Positions 4,252 through 33,833 of a stretch of DNA of 35,231 nucleotides are shown here, piece by piece. Source of the stretch: a virus; IMG/VR virus record IMGVR_UViG_3300043137_000334, positions 1 through 35,231 of that record. One strand, 5' to 3'. Position numbers and translations under genes: made by a program. The notes beneath the pieces were generated by a model. It saw nothing but the letters and a program-made list of their open reading frames with translations, was not told the DNA's origin and did not search any database. Numbering within the stretch: the stretch's first letter is position 1; each line of letters opens with the position of its first letter.

Positions 4252-4501
4252 GTACGAACTGACGGTCAAGCACCGCAAGCATGAGTACCAGGTCATCCTC
4301 GACGGCGATGCCGTGTACGTGGACGACTCCTTCGACCATGCCTTCGGCACCGAGAAGCGCGGCCACTGGGAGCTCGACTGGGAGTCCACCGACATCGTCG
4401 CGGTGTTCGACCTGGACGGAGATGAGATTGACCCCGACGACGTGCCCGGTCTTACCAACGCCATCAAGCAGGCTTCCTATGACCTCGAAATCGAAGGCTA
4501 A
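4244..4501 (+). CDS. Acidic hypothetical protein, 85 aa
   Basis: ATG 4244 overlaps the previous gene by eight bases. The product is strongly acidic (VFDLDGDEIDPDDVPG) with alternating beta-strand-like segments at the N-terminus (YELTVKHRKHEYQVILDG). Small acidic phage proteins can mimic DNA or inhibit DNA-binding enzymes, but nothing here beyond charge supports that. The function is unknown. Confidence 0.7.
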   Translation: MAEYELTVKHRKHEYQVILDGDAVYVDDSFDHAFGTEKRGHWELDWESTDIVAVFDLDGDEIDPDDVPGLTNAIKQASYDLEIEG

Positions 4502-4811
4502 ATACGGAGCCGTCAAAGACGCGGCGATCGCCACGGCCCATCCGTTCCTGACCGCCCAGATGGTGGCCGACCTTACCGGGCATAACCTCCGCTCGGTCCG
4601 TTACGCCATCAAGCAGCTCGGTCTGCCGTGCCTGCGTGAGCGCCGCGTGAAGGGTTCGGTCAAGGACCTCGTCCTATCCGCCCATGCCCATGGGTTGAGC
4701 GTCCCGCAGCTCGCCGAGACCAGCGGGGTCTCTAGGCACACCCTGTACGCGACCTACCGCCGCCTCAATCTGACCCCCTCCGTGGCCCGCCAAGGCCGCC
4801 CGCCCCTATGA
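4479..4811 (+). CDS. Helix-turn-helix DNA-binding protein, 110 aa
   Basis: ATG 4479 lies 23 bases inside the previous gene in another frame. Two HTH-like segments are visible: residues about 23-45 (LTAQMVADLTGHNLRSVRYA) and about 70-97 (LSVPQLAETSGVSRHTLYAT). The second has the classic A-E-x-x-G-V-S pattern. It probably regulates the adjacent lysozyme gene or the divergent promoter region; that role is inferred from position. Confidence 0.68.
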   Translation: MTSKSKAKYGAVKDAAIATAHPFLTAQMVADLTGHNLRSVRYAIKQLGLPCLRERRVKGSVKDLVLSAHAHGLSVPQLAETSGVSRHTLYATYRRLNLTPSVARQGRPPL

Positions 4812-5281
4812 CCCTAGTCCTAGCCCTCTCCGCCGCCCTGCTGACCTCTGAGGCCGTCCCAGAGCCCATCGTCCAAGCCGTCGAACAGGTCGAGTCCTCT
4901 GGCCGTGGGGCCAAGACCCCCGATGGGGACGGCGGCCTAGCCAAGGGCCCCCTACAGTGGCACTCCGTGGCGTGGCGCGATTGCTCCGCCATCAGGCGCA
5001 AGGCTGGCCTCCCGGTCTACCCCTATGCCGACGCGGCCATCCCCGCCAAGGCAAGGGAGTATGCCCGAACCTGGCTGACCGTGCTCAAGGTACGGCTCGC
5101 GGATCGCATCGGCCGGCAGCCGTTCCCCGGGGAGATATGGCTGGCGTGGAATCTCGGCTGGACGGGGTTCGCTCGGTACGGTTTCCAATGGGCGGAGGTT
5201 CCTGCTGCCAAGTTCGACAAGGCGCGGCAGGTCAACACGCTGGCTTGGGGCTTGCCAAAACGCCCTGCCGTCGCAAGGTAA
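4808..5281 (+). CDS. Endolysin, lysozyme/transglycosylase-like, with signal peptide (157 aa)
   Basis: This is the last gene of the rightward cluster; its start overlaps TGA as ATGA. The N-terminus MTLVLALSAALLTSEA looks like a signal peptide or signal-anchor. The next part, EQVESSGRGAKTPDGDGGLA followed by KGPLQ, matches the catalytic-Glu motif (Glu29) of lysozyme-fold enzymes that cleave the glycan strands of peptidoglycan. A later AWNLGWTGFARYG fits the conserved aromatic segment. If exported by Sec, it would act in the periplasm and not depend wholly on a holin. The holin and spanin candidate are on the other strand at 11346-12394. Confidence 0.78.
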   Translation: MTLVLALSAALLTSEAVPEPIVQAVEQVESSGRGAKTPDGDGGLAKGPLQWHSVAWRDCSAIRRKAGLPVYPYADAAIPAKAREYARTWLTVLKVRLADRIGRQPFPGEIWLAWNLGWTGFARYGFQWAEVPAAKFDKARQVNTLAWGLPKRPAVAR

Positions 5282-5341
5282 CAGGCGAGGCCCGGACAAT
5301 ATCAATTGTGCGGGATCGCAACTGAGGGCAGTTCGGGCTTC

Positions 5342-5363
5342 GGGCCATCCGCAAGGGTGGCCC
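5342..5363. terminator. Hairpin terminator between convergent genes
   Basis: A 9-bp stem (5342-5350 with 5355-5363, one G-T pair) closes a GCAA tetraloop, a GNRA loop. It sits between the endolysin stop (5281) and the stop of the leftward gene at 5364. Only a weak T-run follows on either strand, so it may act in both directions inefficiently or stabilise RNA ends. Confidence 0.6.
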
Positions 5364-5867
5364 TTACCGTTTGCGCATGGCGCGGTCGAGGTCGGCCTTC
5401 TTGTAGAAAGCGTTGAGGTGCAGGCCGATGATACCGCGAGGGGTCTTCCAGTACTTAGGCTTCAGTCCTGCCCGGGCGACGCGGCCACGGATGGCGACGT
5501 CGGACACGTTGGCGGCGTGGGCATAGTCCACGATACGGACCCAGCCCTTCGGCACCTTGTCGGCGCGGTGGTCGAACAGGCGCTCGCTGGCCTCACGGAT
5601 GGAGACGTAGGGCGGGACCGGGCGGTAGATGTAAGCCTTATGGCACTGGCCTGTCTTGGCCTTGAACTGATGGGGCTGGCGTTCGAGCATCCCTCGGCGG
5701 TACAGGTCGTAAGCCCTGGTCGAAGCGTTGCGGGTATGGGCCATGCGCAGCTCGTCCCTGATCTGCTCGACGGTGGACCAGCCCTTCGGCGGAGAGTAGT
5801 CGCGGGCGGACGGTTCGGCGCTGAGCTCGCGCATGAGGACGGCGAGCAGTTTGCTGGTCTCGGTCAT
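5364..5867 (-). CDS. Winged-helix/HTH-like DNA-binding protein, 167 aa
   Basis: This is the last gene of the leftward unit; ATG 5867 overlaps the phosphoesterase TGA (ATGA). The N-terminal half (STVEQIRDELRMAHTRNAST, then AYDLYRRGMLERQ) reads as a winged helix. The C-terminal half (VRIVDYAHAANVSDVAIRGR with VARAGLKPKYW) resembles a MerR/excisionase-type helix-turn-helix. No recombinase is present nearby, so it is more likely a regulator or DNA-architecture protein. An upstream in-frame GTG would add five residues. Confidence 0.65.
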   Translation of the reverse strand: MTETSKLLAVLMRELSAEPSARDYSPPKGWSTVEQIRDELRMAHTRNASTRAYDLYRRGMLERQPHQFKAKTGQCHKAYIYRPVPPYVSIREASERLFDHRADKVPKGWVRIVDYAHAANVSDVAIRGRVARAGLKPKYWKTPRGIIGLHLNAFYKKADLDRAMRKR

Positions 5868-6622
5868 ACGTTGATGCGCCACGGCTGGCCTGCCAATTCC
5901 TGCGGGTGGACGTAGAGGGTGGGCACGATGAGGTCGTCAGAGTACTCGCCGTAGCAGATGGCCTGCCCCCACGAGAACGTTTTTCTCCGGGTGTTGGCGT
6001 AGTCCATGCAACCCATGCGCGTGAGCGTTCCGACGTTGATGCCAAGGGGAGAGTCGTCGCGGCGACCCTTGGCGATGCCAGGGGAATGGGTATGACCGAA
6101 GATGACCACGGAGACGCCGCCCTTGCAGTACATCTCGGCCATGTCTCGGCAGGCGTTCTCGTTGTAGATGGAGCCGTGCGTGATCAGGCCGTTGCCGATG
6201 CGCGAGCCTTCCCAGATGCCGTTGTAGGGAATCTGCTTGGCCTTCAGCTTGAGGCAGTGCTGTTGAATCTGGACGAGCAGCAGGCGGGCGCACTCGGCGA
6301 TTACCTGGTTGGATGACTGGGAGAGACGGCGCAGGCGGACCTCATGGTTGCCGTCATGGATGACGAGCTCGAGGTCCTTGTATGCTTTCAGCTGCTCAAG
6401 GAAGGCGAGCCCCTCCTCGACATCCGGGCCGAGCGGGTCGCCGTCGCCCTTGCCTCCGCCCATCATGGGAGAGAGGTCGGTGTAGTCCCCGGCGTGGTCG
6501 AAGCGGTGAGGCTTGAAAGCCTTGATGAAATCCGTGACGGCCTTGCCTGCCGCCGGGTCGATGAGATGCCCATGCGAGCAACTGACGACCGCGAACCGCT
6601 TCCACTTCCGGGTGATGTTCAT
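5864..6622 (-). CDS. Calcineurin-like metallophosphoesterase, 252 aa
   Basis: The metallophosphoesterase motifs are visible in order: SCSHGH (14-19), HAGDYTD (43-49), GNHEVR (91-96), ITHG (147-150) and FGHTH (175-179). The family uses two metal ions to hydrolyse phosphate esters; phage members include DNA-end processing nucleases and phosphatases. In the first motif the usual Asp of D-x-H appears to be Cys or Ser. The start ATG 6622 overlaps the dNMP kinase stop. The neighbours suggest nucleotide or DNA metabolism. The substrate cannot be read from sequence. Confidence 0.85.
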   Translation of the reverse strand: MNITRKWKRFAVVSCSHGHLIDPAAGKAVTDFIKAFKPHRFDHAGDYTDLSPMMGGGKGDGDPLGPDVEEGLAFLEQLKAYKDLELVIHDGNHEVRLRRLSQSSNQVIAECARLLLVQIQQHCLKLKAKQIPYNGIWEGSRIGNGLITHGSIYNENACRDMAEMYCKGGVSVVIFGHTHSPGIAKGRRDDSPLGINVGTLTRMGCMDYANTRRKTFSWGQAICYGEYSDDLIVPTLYVHPQELAGQPWRINV

Positions 6623-7239
6623 CGGTAGAGGCTCATGGACTGGGTGAACTTGCGAGCCCACTGGCGGATGGCCTCGACCGAGTTATCCGGGAAGCAGACC
6701 TGCAGGGCGTTGTCGCGGCTGAAGCAACCGTGGGCGGCCATCATCCCGATGGAGTCGGCCTCGGCGTTGTTGGCAGGCAGGTTGCCTTCGCGCTCGATGT
6801 AGATCGGGACGAAGACCCAGCCCTTCTTGACGCAGATGGACTCGAGCTTGCGGTACTCGTTGAGATAGCGGAGGTCTGGGATGAGGATGACCGAGCCCAT
6901 GGACCCTGACTCGGCGATGGTCTCTTCCGTCCAGGTGTCGATATGCTCGATGACCTTATCGACCCATACGTTCTGGTTCTGGCCTCGGCAGTACTCACCG
7001 TAGGCGACGAGCAGAGGACGGAGGGCGGCCTTCTTCTTGGTGTCCTCGGTGAAGACATCGATCTTCACGCCCGCCTCGTCGAGCGAGAGCTGCAGGGACT
7101 CTTTCAGCGCGTCGGCGAACTTGAGGACGATGCAGGAATACTCCGGCTCGTCTTGTTCGAGCAGCTCGAAGATTGCGTCGGCGAGGGAGTCCTTGCCACT
7201 CCTTGCGAATCCTGCGATGGGTATGAGCACGTGTTTCAT
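6619..7239 (-). CDS. Deoxynucleoside monophosphate kinase-like P-loop protein, 206 aa
   Basis: The P-loop GFARSGKD (10-17) follows the N-terminal beta strand KHVLIPIA. The length and the later segments (VILIPDLRYLNEY, FVPIYIEREGN) fit phage dNMP kinases, which raise dNDP supply for replication. ATG 7239 overlaps the upstream TGA as ATGA; an in-frame extension to 7326 would run into the metallopeptidase gene. Another P-loop kinase class remains possible. Confidence 0.75.
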   Translation of the reverse strand: MKHVLIPIAGFARSGKDSLADAIFELLEQDEPEYSCIVLKFADALKESLQLSLDEAGVKIDVFTEDTKKKAALRPLLVAYGEYCRGQNQNVWVDKVIEHIDTWTEETIAESGSMGSVILIPDLRYLNEYRKLESICVKKGWVFVPIYIEREGNLPANNAEADSIGMMAAHGCFSRDNALQVCFPDNSVEAIRQWARKFTQSMSLYR

Positions 7240-27979: not shown

Positions 27980-29812
27980 CTATTGCGGGCTTTGTAAGGT
28001 TTGGGTCTCGTCCCGACCGAGCAGACCCCAGCGGGCCGCGATGAGCATCCCGAGAAGCTCGCAGTCGAACGCATGGTTATCGCGGACGCCCTGCCTCCGC
28101 TTCCAGATGGCCTTGCCAGCTTCCTTTACGCGGACCTCACTGTTCAATTGTTCCACGTAGGAGGGGTCGGCATCCCGCGCATAGGAGAAGACCTTTCTCG
28201 CCTTCATGCCCGCGAAGAGGTCCTTGCCGCTCAGATTCGACCACACCACCAAGGCCGTCGGCGTACGCACGCCAGGGACATGGATGGCGGTCGGCGTGTT
28301 GTAGAACCGCCGCACCGTGTCGCCCGACTTCGTCTTGATGTTGAAGTACTCCTGGCCAGAACCCTTGGCGCAGTACCAGCCACGGATCGCGCACTGCTTG
28401 TAGACCTCCTGCGTGGACTTGCCGTCGCCGGAGTCCACCATGACGAGCTGAGGGTGCACGCCGTGCTTGGCCGCCAGAGCGTCCAGCCCGCTCCAGTCCG
28501 TCAGGCCGTCGGTGCTGTTGACCTTGCCGAAGTGGACCAAGCGGCTGTGCCCGGTGCGAGCCCACTGCCGCACCACCGTCCAGAAGTGGTCGCCTTGGCA
28601 GTCAACTTGCAGGGTCTGGAACTTGACCGAACTGTCCGGCGCGTCGGCCTTGTCCACGATCTGGCCGCGAGGCCCGATGTAGCAGACCGCGTCCCAAGGG
28701 TCGGCCATGGCGTAGTCGGACGACTCAAGGCTCACCACCATCGAGCCCTGGTCATCCGCCCAAGGGAGCGCGAGGTACTGCTGCTTAAACAGGATACGCG
28801 GGGTCTGGTCGCCGATGACGTCAGCCACCTCCTTCGCCTTGATCATGTCCACGGCCAGCGAGCCCCAGCTCGTCGATGCCAATGCGTTGACGTGGAGCCC
28901 GACGTACCCGGCCTTCTCAGCCTTGGCCGTAGGCTCGAACCCGGCGCCACGCTCGACCTCGTTGCAGATGCTCCGCACCTCGTCGTTATCCTCGAAACGA
29001 TCGCGGCACTTGGAGCACTCGTAGGTCGTCCCCTTCTGCACGGCCTCAAGGTCCCAGCCGTCCGTCATCTTCGCCCCCTCTGGGAACCTAATGTAGTCCC
29101 ACAAAAACGGCTGCCGATGGCGGCACGCCTCGTTGGGGCAGACGAACATCCACTCCCGCTGGTCGGTCATCAGATAGAACTTCCAGAACTCCGCCCCCTG
29201 TCCTTCGACGTTCCCGGGCTGGCTCTCGTAGATCGCCTTGCTCGCGAACGCCGCCGCCTTCAGTCGGCTGAGGCTCATGGCGATGGCGCCGTTCGGCCAC
29301 TGCCAGCACTCCGAGCCGAACACGTAGCGGACGTGCAGGGACTGCAGGTGCTTCTCCGTCGAGGCCGAGCGGTTATGAATCAGCGAGCCGTCCGCGAACC
29401 GCAACGTGCCAGACTTGTCGTTGTCGTCCGCGCTCATCTGCGCCCGGATGTCCGGCACCTGGTCGAACAGCGGCCGCAGCTCGTTAAGCGTGAACCCCTT
29501 CGCCTTGTCCTGCGAGTCGAGGTAGATGGCCATCGACGCCCGACGGTTCGCCATCAGGTACGCCGCGTTCAGCTTCAGCGTCAGCGTCTTCCCGCAACCG
29601 ATGGCCCACGGCATGAACATCCGCGACGTCGTCGGCTGGTTGAAGATGCGGATGGCCTCCGCGATCCACGGCCAGCGCTTCGGATTGTACCCGCCGTCGA
29701 ACACGCCCGCAGGAATCTTCTTCACGTTCTCCTTCAGGTACGCGACAGGGTCCGACAACGCCGACGGCCTGACCACCGCCAAGCCCTCCTGGAAAAGTTC
29801 CTCGGCGTTCAC
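27980..29812 (-). CDS. Terminase large subunit, GpA type, 610 aa
   Basis: This is the packaging ATPase and nuclease. Walker A is PWAIGCGKT (about 68-76). A zinc ribbon has CPNEAC (225-230) and CSKC (266-269), typical of GpA. Nuclease acids are VDCQGDHFW (Asp404), VMVDSGDGKS (Asp460) and RDNHAFDCE (Asp578, Asp583). In Walker B the usual Asp-Glu is Ser-Glu (VRYVFGSECWQWP, Glu168). The start is GTG 29812, overlapping the small-subunit stop as GTGA. The type suggests cos-like packaging as in lambda; the cleavage site itself was not found. Confidence 0.93.
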   Translation of the reverse strand: MNAEELFQEGLAVVRPSALSDPVAYLKENVKKIPAGVFDGGYNPKRWPWIAEAIRIFNQPTTSRMFMPWAIGCGKTLTLKLNAAYLMANRRASMAIYLDSQDKAKGFTLNELRPLFDQVPDIRAQMSADDNDKSGTLRFADGSLIHNRSASTEKHLQSLHVRYVFGSECWQWPNGAIAMSLSRLKAAAFASKAIYESQPGNVEGQGAEFWKFYLMTDQREWMFVCPNEACRHRQPFLWDYIRFPEGAKMTDGWDLEAVQKGTTYECSKCRDRFEDNDEVRSICNEVERGAGFEPTAKAEKAGYVGLHVNALASTSWGSLAVDMIKAKEVADVIGDQTPRILFKQQYLALPWADDQGSMVVSLESSDYAMADPWDAVCYIGPRGQIVDKADAPDSSVKFQTLQVDCQGDHFWTVVRQWARTGHSRLVHFGKVNSTDGLTDWSGLDALAAKHGVHPQLVMVDSGDGKSTQEVYKQCAIRGWYCAKGSGQEYFNIKTKSGDTVRRFYNTPTAIHVPGVRTPTALVVWSNLSGKDLFAGMKARKVFSYARDADPSYVEQLNSEVRVKEAGKAIWKRRQGVRDNHAFDCELLGMLIAARWGLLGRDETQTLQSPQ

Positions 29813-30312
29813 GGCTTGGGCTCCTCGAAGACTCCGGCCACGCGCGCCACTTTCTCCCGCGTCTCCCTCGCCCATTCGGTCAGCACGCCGATGGCCTTGA
29901 TCGGGTCCTTCGGGTTGCAGTTCTCGCCACACTCCGAGCCAAGCGCATCCATCCGCTCGACGATGAGACCAGCCAGACGCAACATCGCCTCACGCGCTTC
30001 CACCGCCTTGATGTGCTCCCGGGCGAACACGCTCCTACGCTCGGCCTCTTCCCGCAGGGCGACCGCTTGCTTCAACGACTGGTTGTACGTGACCTGAGCG
30101 TACCGAGCCTCCGCATCACCGGCACGGAGCAGCCGTTCGTACTTCTCACGCGATAGCACGACCAGGCGCTCATGCTTCTCGATCGTCTGCTCGAAGCTCG
30201 CGTCGGGAATTCCCTCCACGTCCAAAGGCGGCCTTTCTTTCTTCGGTCGCCCCGGCTTGCGCGGTTCAGCCGAACCAGAATCTTCGGTTTTTTGATGGTT
30301 TTCAAAATCCAT
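29809..30312 (-). CDS. Putative terminase small subunit with AT-hook-like tail, 167 aa
   Basis: It lies directly upstream of and overlaps the large subunit. The N-terminal segment PRKPGRPKKERPP contains a GRP core flanked by basic residues, like an AT-hook, which would bind the minor groove at the packaging site. A long helical region follows (EKHERLVVLSREKYERLLRA to REAMLRLAGLIVERMD). No classic small-terminase HTH is evident. ATG 30312 follows a T-rich leader. Role by position and DNA-binding motif. Confidence 0.7.
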   Translation of the reverse strand: MDFENHQKTEDSGSAEPRKPGRPKKERPPLDVEGIPDASFEQTIEKHERLVVLSREKYERLLRAGDAEARYAQVTYNQSLKQAVALREEAERRSVFAREHIKAVEAREAMLRLAGLIVERMDALGSECGENCNPKDPIKAIGVLTEWARETREKVARVAGVFEEPKP

Positions 30313-30314
30313 GT

Positions 30315-30348
30315 TTAAAAAAACAAAGGGGTGGCCAGCCACGCGGCC
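30315..30348 (-). terminator. Possible terminator/leader hairpin before the terminase genes
   Basis: GTGGCCAGCCAC (30331-30342) can fold into a short hairpin and is followed on the minus strand by CCCC, TTTG and seven T (30323-30317). It sits between the HTH gene stop (30401) and the small-terminase ATG (30312). If it works, it attenuates transcription into the virion genes; the hairpin is short, so confidence is low. Confidence 0.35.
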
Positions 30349-30400
30349 TTAGGGGGGGTGCCTAAAAGATTCCTTTTGGCCCTGTTTCCACGGTGTGCGC

Positions 30401-30865
30401 TCATTCGCTGCGGACGCGGCGTAGACCGGCCTCCATGCGCCCCTTGAAGGCAGATACCTGCTGCATCGCGCCTTCGCGTGAGCATCCGAGTAACTTTCCG
30501 ATCTGGTTCATCGTGAGCTTACTGCCTATCCCTAGGCCGATGCGTACCACCTCGGCTTGGCCTCTGAGCTTGGCGCAGCGCTTACGTCCGATTGCGTCCA
30601 GGACAACGGCGAGGATGGCCAGCACCTCTGCCCGGTCGAAGGACTGACGGCGTACGGTCGCGTCCTCTCCCTGCTCCTGGCGTAGACGGTGACACGCCTT
30701 GGCTTCGTCTAGCTCGAAGACGTTGTCGCCGGACTTGGGCAGTTCGCGGTAGGGCTTGAAGCCTGATCGTCTGGCCTTGGCTTGAGCGGCCTTGGACATG
30801 GAGTCGAAGTGAGCATCGACGGCGCGTTGATGCTCTGGCGGGATGTTGTCCTGAGTCTCGACCAC
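30401..30865 (-). CDS. Helix-turn-helix regulator (sigma region 4-like), 154 aa
   Basis: The C-terminal part, LTMNQIGKLLGCSREGAMQQ then VSAFKGRMEAGLRRVR (about 116-151), reads as a helix-turn-helix of sigma-region-4 style. The N-terminal half is charged with SKAAQAKARRSGFKPYRELP. The start is GTG 30865 with AAGG a few bases upstream. It lies directly downstream of the GTTTGCA array and directly upstream of the packaging genes. A late-gene activator or autoregulated repressor is the best guess; no known family was matched. Confidence 0.65.
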   Translation of the reverse strand: MVETQDNIPPEHQRAVDAHFDSMSKAAQAKARRSGFKPYRELPKSGDNVFELDEAKACHRLRQEQGEDATVRRQSFDRAEVLAILAVVLDAIGRKRCAKLRGQAEVVRIGLGIGSKLTMNQIGKLLGCSREGAMQQVSAFKGRMEAGLRRVRSE

Positions 30866-31193
30866 TTGCCTTGGTTGTAGGGTCGTTGATGGCTTAAAGT
30901 GAAACTATAACCCAACAGGCTTGTTTGCATCCGTTTGCTGGCGTTTGCAGGACTTGCAAACACGATAAGCCGTTGATGGTCAGCATACTTGCAGACGCAT
31001 ACTACTACTACCTACAACTATATAGATAGATATATATTAAGAGAGGGAAGAGAGGAGGGGAGAGGAGGGACATCCCTATAAAGGGGGCTATAGCGTGGGA
31101 AAGTTGCAAACAGCCGATGGCGTACGCAAAGCGTTGCCACTACAAACACTTAATGCGTTTGCAGAGTTCCCTCTCGGGGTTGCAACAAAGGGA
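30866..31193. promoter_or_regulatory. Long non-coding region: GTTTGCA box array, AT-rich tract, purine tract; candidate origin/control region
   Basis: No gene is supported here; it is the longest gap in the genome. GTTTGCA boxes occur at 30923, 30933 (last base T) and 30943, spaced exactly 10 bp, with inverted TGCAAAC at 30955 and 31105. GCGTTTGCAG at 31155-31164 repeats 30941-30950, and GTTGCAAC lies at 31179. Between the clusters are an AT-rich stretch (about 31008-31040) and 32 unbroken purines (31039-31070). A minus-strand -10 TATAGT (30909-30904) precedes the HTH gene, with the boxes over its -35 area. It lies downstream of the primase gene. Origin function and regulator binding are both inferred. 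Confidence 0.6.
30923..30961. repeat. Phased GTTTGCA array (three direct, one inverted)
   Basis: Three boxes start at 30923, 30933 and 30943, one helical turn apart, and TGCAAAC at 30955-30961 faces them. The spacing puts all sites on one face of the DNA, as expected for cooperative protein binding. Confidence 0.8.
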
Positions 31194-33833
31194 TTAGGAG
31201 CCGAAGGCCGTACGCGGAATCCGTACCGCTCGGTGGATGGAGGCGCCGAATCTGACCCCAGCGACGTGGGCGGCACCCGGTACTCTTGCAAACTGATCCT
31301 TCCACTTATCCGCCCAGGACGTGTCCATGAACAGGGTACGAAGGGCGGGGTGGTGGTTGGAGATGGCGACGGTGTCATCCTCCAGTCGGATGCCGGAGCG
31401 CATGAGGTTCTGGCGCAGGTTGTCGGCCTCGTCCACGGTGACCTCGGTGGAGTAGTAAGCCTGTACGAGCTCGCCGATGGATCGGGTATAGGTGTGGTCG
31501 CCCTGCTCGAAGCGGATGGACTTGTCGAGGAGCCAAGCGAGGGCTCGGACTTCGTCCTGGTCGGCCTCGTCGGGCATGAAGCCGTGCCAGTTCTGCTTAT
31601 CGACCCAAGCGGTGGCGTCCTCAAGGGAGAGCACCCGCGTCGAGGTCAGGGAGAAGGCCCCGGATAGGAGAGCGCCGAGCTGGTCGCCGATGCGCTGGTC
31701 TCCCAGCTTGATGGCCACGGCCTTGGCGAAGGTGCGGGCGTTGGCGGTGATGGAGAGGGCGTTAGCCAGGGAGCGTGAGCGGATGCCCTCGGCGTACTCG
31801 GGGCGGGCCACGGTCTCGGCCCAGAGGGCTTTGAGCTGCTCGAAGCGTTCGCGGCCTCCGTCGGTGTTGTCCTTGCAGAGTTCGAGCGAGGTGATGCGTG
31901 AGGTGTCGGCGCGCTGGTGAGCGGCCACGCCGATGGAGGCGAAGGCGAAGCAGGACCTGATCTGGTACTCATGGGCCTTGCCGGAGGCGGAGCCCTTGCC
32001 GATGCCAGCGCCGGTCTCGGCGGAGGCGGCGCGTGCGAGTTCGAGGATGGACTGCATCCGCATCTGGCCGCGCTTGTCCTCGGACTCGGCCTCGTCGAAC
32101 ACGACAGGCAGGGCGTCGGACTTGAGGCGCTGACGGATGTAAGCCTCGGTCGTGGCGGACTGGACGGAGAGGGCTAGGCGACCGACGAGCGGGTCGAGGA
32201 TGTTGTTGAGGAGCCAGGTCTTGCCGGAGCCTGACGGACCGTTGACCCAGATATGGGGACGCCATCCGAGCACGCCGCAGATGGGGGCGATGACGCACCA
32301 GCCCGCGAAGAACTTGGAGAAGATGGGCTCCTTCCAGTTCATCATGTCGGTCAGCTGCATGAGGCGGGCGGCCTCGGCGTTGGAGATGGGCTCGGCTTGG
32401 TCGGCCTCAAGGCGCTGGCCTTGGGTGTAGATCCACTTCGACTGCCAAGAGGGGATGGTGCGCTCCTGGTTGCCGATGAGGAGGCGGTCGCCCGCATGGA
32501 ACAGGACCTGCTCGCCATCGACCCAACAGCCACGGCCACGGACTCGGCGGGGGGCGAAGATGCCCTCGCGGTGGCTGGCTTGGATGAGGGCGTTGGCGGC
32601 GGCCTTCCAGTCGGCGCCTTCGCGTCCGGGGAAGTGAGTCTCCCACCAGTTAGCACCGGCGAGGCGGAGGAACGGCAGGTGCTTGTGGTCGCTGGCGGTG
32701 AGAGAGACGATCTGCTGGCTGGAGTCGGGCAGGTAGAAGTAGACGCCCTCGTCATGGCCTAGGACGCGGAACGGCCACGGCTCTTCGGTGACCGGGTCGG
32801 GCTCATGGAGGGGAGCGGCGTCGAGGTTGGCGTAGTCGATGGCCTCGAGGACTTCGGGCGGGGGAGGGGTCGGTTCGGCCGGCTGGGCTGGAGCGGTAGG
32901 CTCGCCCTTGATGTGAGCGCGGACGCGGTCGGTGTCCCATCCCTCGGCCTCGGCGTCGGCGAGGTCCCAGCCTTCGGCCACGCCGGTGGGCGGGGTGACG
33001 ATGCGGACGTTGGGCAGTTGCTTGCGGATGAGCTCGATGCACTTGCGTCCGGGCTCATCGGCATCGGGCCAGAACAGCACCTTACGCTCGGCGAGGGGCG
33101 ACCAGTCGGCGAGGCTGACGGCCTTGGAGCCGCCCGACCAGGTCGTGACGGCGAGGTGAGGCATGAGGCGCTGCGCTGCGTCGGCGGTCTTCTCGCCCTC
33201 GACGATAAGGACCCAGCCGGTGGAGGCTACGACGCGAGGCAGGGCATAGAGCGGGCGGGGCTTGGCGAAGGAGCGCCAGCGCCAGCCCTCGCGGCCAGAG
33301 ACGTGCTTGCACCAGGTGATGGGGAGGACTTCCTTGGAGCCGTCGGCGAGGTTAAACCTGCAGATCAGACCGACGCGGTGCCCTTCGGCGGTGTGATAGG
33401 TCCAAGTGGCGACAGGCTGGCCGTGCTTGTAGTGGTTGAGGTCGGGCTCATGGCAGCCGTCGGGAGCGTGGGGCATGGGCTCCCACTCGGACGCGGCTGA
33501 CGGCTTTGACTCGTACTCGGCGCGGGGAGCGGTGGCCGTGAGGTTGCCGAGGTTGAGGCGCTCGGTCAGTTCGCGGGCGGCCTCGCCCTGTTTGCATCCA
33601 CGGATGGCGGCGAGGAGGCTGATCGGGTCGGAGCCCTTGTCGTCCCCGGCGAAGTCGCACCACTTGCCGGTGGTGAGGTTGATGGAGAGGCTGGAGCCGG
33701 GCTCGCCCCTTACGGAGCCGACCTTGAACTCATGGCCGTCCTTCTTGCCTGCTGGGAACCATTCGCAGCAGAGGGATTCGAGGGAGCCGAGCGCGGCGTT
33801 GTTGATGGAAGCGAAGTCAAGACGAGGTGCCAT
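31194..33833 (-). CDS. Toprim primase-helicase, 879 aa
   Basis: The N-terminal segment TGKWCDFAGDDKGSDPISLL (about 55-74) matches the fold of phage/plasmid primase N-domains. A Toprim domain carries WVLIVEGEKTAD (Glu212) and VLFWPDADEPG (Asp257, Asp259). A proline-rich linker (about 312-328) leads to the helicase half with Walker A NGPSGSGKT (531-539) and Walker B LPVVFDEAE (575-583). It should prime and unwind DNA for phage replication. ATG 33833 follows CCCGCACCCT. The non-coding array region lies just past its stop. Confidence 0.9.
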   Translation of the reverse strand: MAPRLDFASINNAALGSLESLCCEWFPAGKKDGHEFKVGSVRGEPGSSLSINLTTGKWCDFAGDDKGSDPISLLAAIRGCKQGEAARELTERLNLGNLTATAPRAEYESKPSAASEWEPMPHAPDGCHEPDLNHYKHGQPVATWTYHTAEGHRVGLICRFNLADGSKEVLPITWCKHVSGREGWRWRSFAKPRPLYALPRVVASTGWVLIVEGEKTADAAQRLMPHLAVTTWSGGSKAVSLADWSPLAERKVLFWPDADEPGRKCIELIRKQLPNVRIVTPPTGVAEGWDLADAEAEGWDTDRVRAHIKGEPTAPAQPAEPTPPPPEVLEAIDYANLDAAPLHEPDPVTEEPWPFRVLGHDEGVYFYLPDSSQQIVSLTASDHKHLPFLRLAGANWWETHFPGREGADWKAAANALIQASHREGIFAPRRVRGRGCWVDGEQVLFHAGDRLLIGNQERTIPSWQSKWIYTQGQRLEADQAEPISNAEAARLMQLTDMMNWKEPIFSKFFAGWCVIAPICGVLGWRPHIWVNGPSGSGKTWLLNNILDPLVGRLALSVQSATTEAYIRQRLKSDALPVVFDEAESEDKRGQMRMQSILELARAASAETGAGIGKGSASGKAHEYQIRSCFAFASIGVAAHQRADTSRITSLELCKDNTDGGRERFEQLKALWAETVARPEYAEGIRSRSLANALSITANARTFAKAVAIKLGDQRIGDQLGALLSGAFSLTSTRVLSLEDATAWVDKQNWHGFMPDEADQDEVRALAWLLDKSIRFEQGDHTYTRSIGELVQAYYSTEVTVDEADNLRQNLMRSGIRLEDDTVAISNHHPALRTLFMDTSWADKWKDQFARVPGAAHVAGVRFGASIHRAVRIPRTAFGS

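Follow-up and report, generated by a model that had tools for sequence, protein, structure and literature searches.

What is the function of the 328-bp gap (30866–31193) that separates the replication genes from the late genes in this phage? The window, i.e., the whole 35,231-nucleotide stretch of DNA that was analysed, has a 127-bp end overlap, with 35104 bp unique. On the minus strand, the genes at its replication end are ordered helicase, VRR-NUC, primase-helicase (31194–33833), the gap, and a gene for an HTH-like 154-aa protein without a family match (30401–30865), beyond which lie cos, TerS, TerL, portal, prohead protease, and more late-region genes. Rfam and tRNA scans gave no matches, a direct DNA search of phage records returned none either, and none of the scanned proteins was recognised as a phage DNA polymerase. 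As far as can be judged from sequence, the gap very probably serves as a replication origin: it lies directly 3′ of the primase-helicase gene, its position is syntenic in close relatives, and comparable arrays occupy the same position in distant ones.

The first-pass annotation had described three GTTTGC(A/T) boxes exactly 10 bp apart with an inverted one beside them, and all are present as cluster 1: GTTTGCA (30923–30929), GTTTGCT (30933–30939), and GTTTGCA (30943–30949) on the plus strand, followed by the inverted box on the minus strand (30955–30961). Cluster 2 comprises a minus-strand box (31105–31111) and three plus-strand sites: a degenerate, half-conserved TACAAAC (31141–31147), GTTTGCA (31157–31163), and a degenerate TTGCAACA (31180–31187) that adjoins the primase stop codon. 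The exact copy reported to be shared by the clusters is GCGTTTGCAG, identical at 30941–30950 and 31155–31164. The gap has 6 copies of GCAAAC/GTTTGC, whereas 5000 dinucleotide shuffles of it averaged 0.24 and never gave more than 3, and in a set of 2000 shuffles no hexamer at all was as frequent. Nowhere else in the 35-kb window do the boxes cluster. The clusters lie 150 bp apart, and the DNA between them has an AT fraction of 0.56 (0.78 in the best 40 bp) versus 0.39 for the genome. The AT-rich stretch (31000–31045), a candidate melting site, reaches 75–78% AT in 40 bp, with the maximum of the gap (75%) near 31006–31045. It meets a run of exactly 32 purines on the plus strand (31039–31070), so that the AT-rich and polypurine DNA noted earlier between the clusters is indeed there; a long purine/pyrimidine tract is kept in close relatives and not in distant ones. 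Also between the clusters is TATAAAGGGGGCTATA (31077–31092, plus strand), which the alignment of relatives shows to be one of the best-conserved segments of the region; some of the distant arrays have C-runs resembling it. The DnaA box TTATNCACA is absent from the gap.

The first-pass annotation had proposed looking for conserved boxes in related phages. In 18 IMG/VR contigs with an 87–96% identical primase, the gap is syntenic and the boxes are in register, including the three GTTTGC(A/T) boxes of cluster 1 and the GTTTGCA of cluster 2, with their positions and the gap length (~327 bp) kept. Three lineages (L007/L009, L011, and L016) have switched boxes in both clusters, with TGCA(T/C)ACA in place of TGCAAACG. 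The switch affects 7 of 7 boxes in L007/L009, 7 of 7 in L011, and 6 of 7 in L016, which read TGCATACA or TGCACACA, with some TGCATTCA in L016. The inverted box of cluster 1 reads GTATGCA in all of these, and the minus-strand box of cluster 2 changes together with cluster 1. The degenerate box next to the stop codon is TGTATGCACG in L007/L009/L011 and is unswitched in L016, and the half-conserved TACAAAC is unswitched in the variant lineages. A further GTTTGCA at 31287, inside the primase gene, is unswitched in L007, L009, and L016 and is therefore considered coding sequence and not a box. Because cluster 1 and cluster 2 change in concert, one sequence-reading protein appears to serve both, and selection on such a shared reader is the simple explanation. 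Two other features were seen among the contigs. In L061, an insertion of ~650 bp (1509–2159) interrupts the primase gene; it may be an intron or a different mobile insert. The contig of L001 (L022–L023; circular length 33967 bp) overlaps itself by ~1.2 kb with sequence differences, which suggests two co-occurring variants.

More distant homologues were collected with a profile built from the last 400 aa of the primase-helicase, which yielded 69 further loci at 38–60% identity. Many of these carry 6–13 copies of a different hexamer directly 3′ of the primase-helicase gene, and at other loci a comparable array lies 0.6–3 kb further on. Arrays of at least 8 copies were found in 13 of 59 downstream windows, versus 14 of 2910 control windows (Fisher p 3e-16, odds ~58-fold), with near-duplicate contigs only roughly removed. 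Roughly two in three distant homologues lack a strong array in the 420 bp that follow the gene, and for some no array was found at all; PBb001, Jeremy, and ZRG1 are among those with none found directly 3′ of the primase-helicase gene. The oriented consensus boxes of the distant lineages include TGTCAACA, TTGTAACG, TTGAAACA, TGCAGACT, CGCTGACA, TGCGGACG, TGGTAACG, TTGCAACA, TGCACACC, CGGGAACG, TGCCTACA, and TGCTAACA, and nearly all lineage boxes fit T(G/T)NNNAC(A/G), or TGNNNACR in short form. Box spacings of about 9, 12, 52, and 100 recur across arrays, and in most arrays (not in L118) the widest gap between boxes has a higher AT content than the locus as a whole. The genes that follow the arrays differ, and thus the primase-helicase is the common partner. 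The arrangement of primase and array is present in S-H1 too, and the linear genome of KLER1-1 has primase and array at its end and TerS at its start. Scanning viral contigs for the DNA pattern turned up one more array locus (L076), hits in the remaining non-relatives looking like chance matches, and a scan of genome contigs gave one remote match only.

An inflection of GC skew had also been proposed as a check. A local cumulative minimum does lie nearby, at 30677; the global extremes sit elsewhere, at points where gene orientation switches, and for this reason GC skew alone is not decisive. A change in third-position skew between primase and TerS is conserved in relatives. Along the same-strand genes from 27980 to 33833, third-position GC skew is strongly negative in primase, turns positive in TerS, and reverts in portal, a pattern seen in every relative that has these genes.

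If one protein reads both clusters, the primase-helicase is the better candidate, compared with the HTH-like protein, although there are no binding data. It combines a Toprim-type N-terminal part, an AAA+/SF3-like helicase, and a C-terminal winged-helix-like domain (aa about 755–879; 31197–31571, minus strand), the last being the proposed box reader. Only two residues of the primase-helicase separate the box types, and one of these, A823 (codon 31365–31367; T in L010), is the only residue of the C-terminal domain that tracks them, being S or C where the boxes are switched. The evidence from close relatives for A823 as a putative specificity determinant is thin. An AlphaFold model of the helicase and C-terminal region built with 50 homologues (pLDDT 90.6) places residue 823 in a beta strand (model residues 343–347) of a winged-helix-like fold; the single-sequence model was useless (pLDDT 38). 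The best Foldseek match in the PDB was the SaPI PriRep1-dsDNA structure 7pds (E 6e-5, TM about 0.4, 11–12% identity), ahead of MCM and AAV Rep40. A sequence-profile search of the PDB with the C-terminal region gave mostly P-loop matches and nothing informative on the C-terminal domain. Across lineages, box distance follows C-terminal-domain distance when corrected for helicase-domain distance (r 0.145, p 0.008), whereas the reverse correction gives p 0.34. This coevolution signal is modest and the boxes were partly called by hand; an analysis by column yielded no clean set of specificity residues. One further protein was considered as a reader, the product of a small, conserved, early ORF of 102–109 aa (1002–1331), whose alleles (AGAKAT vs SGKQSQ) go with box type wherever a lineage has the ORF. 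It was set aside because L016 has switched boxes without a detectable homologue, and because it has no Pfam or convincing PHROG match.

The first-pass annotation had named the HTH-like protein (30401–30865) as another possible binder, and such a protein could act on the boxes as an autoregulator or an initiator. Its gene is adjacent to the gap, and cluster 1 lies in its own upstream region. However, its putative recognition helix differs widely among phages with identical boxes (SREGAMQQ, SRVSVVQQ, and SAVSSVHEQ), while the lineages with variant boxes share SREAAMGQ, which is close to the helix of the window phage. Furthermore, no homologue is encoded downstream of the primase at any of 19 distant array loci, and a scan of viral contigs for the HTH protein found none. 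On present evidence it is not the box reader, and this explanation is very improbable. Even less credit can be given to the boxes being a packaging element bound by terminase near the genome end. Three independent contigs (L006, L008, and L011) start with GTGRCNAGCCAC and end with GTGRCNAGCCA, from which a cos with 11-nt cohesive ends is inferred at 30331–30341, between the HTH gene and TerS, and this is only ~580 bp from cluster 1. Nevertheless, TerS has no residue that segregates with box type, and in several distant phages gene modules other than terminase follow the array. Beside the inferred cos, AAAAGATTCCTT (30364–30375) is conserved in all relatives and is possibly a site for terminase or a host factor.

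A more serious, though still unlikely, alternative is that the array serves purely to control late transcription, an activator or repressor on the phased boxes acting upstream of TATAGT on the HTH gene and, across the joined cos, on the terminase and structural genes. The region does divide replication genes from late genes, and the -10-like TATAGT (30904–30909, minus strand), within GTTATAGTTTCACTT, adjoins cluster 1 and is conserved in close relatives, its promoter function being predicted only. Against this, phages with unrelated downstream genes also carry the array 3′ of the primase-helicase gene, and in KLER1-1 only the genome end follows it. Nearly 200 bp or more separate cluster 2 from the -10, and two sets with boxes on both sides of AT-rich DNA are the layout of published origins. 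The conserved -10 would also suit a promoter, and a promoter may coexist with an origin. Since this element lies beside cluster 1, the earlier suggestion that replication and late transcription share a control remains possible, and is unproven.

The origin reading of the first-pass annotation is thus retained, and it is well supported by the observed conservation and concerted switch of the boxes, their statistics within the gap, the arrays associated with diverged homologues, the two sets around AT-rich DNA, the resemblance to PriRep1, and the parallels with SaPI/PICI origins and P4 crr. With no binding or replication data available, we hold it highly likely that the 328-bp gap is the phage replication origin and that its initiator is the primase-helicase encoded just upstream, with the C-terminal domain binding the boxes. 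The steps of the proposed mechanism, from this binding to melting, helicase loading, and priming, are all inferred. The winged-helix-like domain would bind the TGCAAACG boxes in both clusters, probably as oligomers on each side, and the bound initiator would open the AT-rich stretch between them. The primase-helicase would then load as helicase and prime synthesis, after which a host polymerase would take over. If a promoter of the HTH gene and late genes overlaps cluster 1, the bound initiator may co-regulate it.

A broader proposal can be offered only tentatively: that a large group of tailed phages has one origin design in which the C-terminal domain of the initiator and the box (TGNNNACR, with a fast-changing centre) diversify together, possibly keeping satellites, co-infecting phages, or defence systems from using or targeting a foreign origin. 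If this is true, the concerted switch within the close group would represent a recent step of that diversification. The natural series of initiator/box pairs, which includes close phages with switched boxes, offers a route to how the domain reads DNA, and bears on whether origin specificity shapes competition between phages and satellites and among phages.

Among known replicons, PICI origins lie directly 3′ of rep and always have an AT-rich region between two iteron sets, and the rep-ori segment of an E. coli PICI has been shown to replicate (PMC6092414). Similarly, the gap of the window phage and of 18 relatives directly follows the primase-helicase stop codon, and two iteron sets flank an AT-rich region. 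In both SaPI Rep and SCCmec Cch2, it is the C-terminal domain that recognises the iterons (PMC7581432). The SaPI initiator is a helicase with an iteron-reading C-terminal domain; the window-phage initiator matches PriRep1 (7pds) in fold, and its DNA binding is inferred. In contrast to SaPIs and PICIs, the initiator has a Toprim-type primase part and only ~11–12% identity to PriRep1 over the aligned structure, and the boxes vary by lineage around TGNNNACR. The window phage is a full-size tailed phage and not a PICI satellite, since it encodes terminase, portal, prohead protease, and further late-region genes. An origin design in full-size phages with PriRep1 as the closest solved relative in this search bears on the descent of satellite replicons.

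Cch2 is likewise an initiator helicase that binds direct repeats, at a putative origin just downstream of its own gene, via its C-terminal domain, but it belongs to another type of element, with five-base iterons (AAGTG) and a separate CCPol-MP primase. Iterons with an AT-rich element are also found with lambda O and in iteron plasmids, from which the present gap differs in having no DnaA box and a proposed initiator that is itself a helicase. In lambda, the array lies inside the initiator gene, whereas in the window phage it is outside.

The alpha protein of P4 is stated to bind its own repeats with a winged-helix domain (PMC4234260), and it shares with the window-phage protein a Toprim-type primase fused to a helicase. 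The P4 crr (4291–4590) lies directly 3′ of alpha (4636–6969) with two sets of five repeats, and its type 1 octamers, TGTGAACA/GGTGAACA, have the same form as the boxes, TGTGAACA fitting TGNNNACR. However, the hhalign alignment is confined to 32 columns around Walker A, with no homology to alpha found beyond these, and P4 has a separate ori ~4.5 kb away, while the 35-kb window has no second box cluster. By analogy, and in the absence of binding or replication data, the present system may work like the SaPI/PICI, Cch2, and P4 systems without being a PICI; a layout known from phage satellites (SaPI/PICI and P4) would then occur here in full-size phages, each lineage with its own site sequence.
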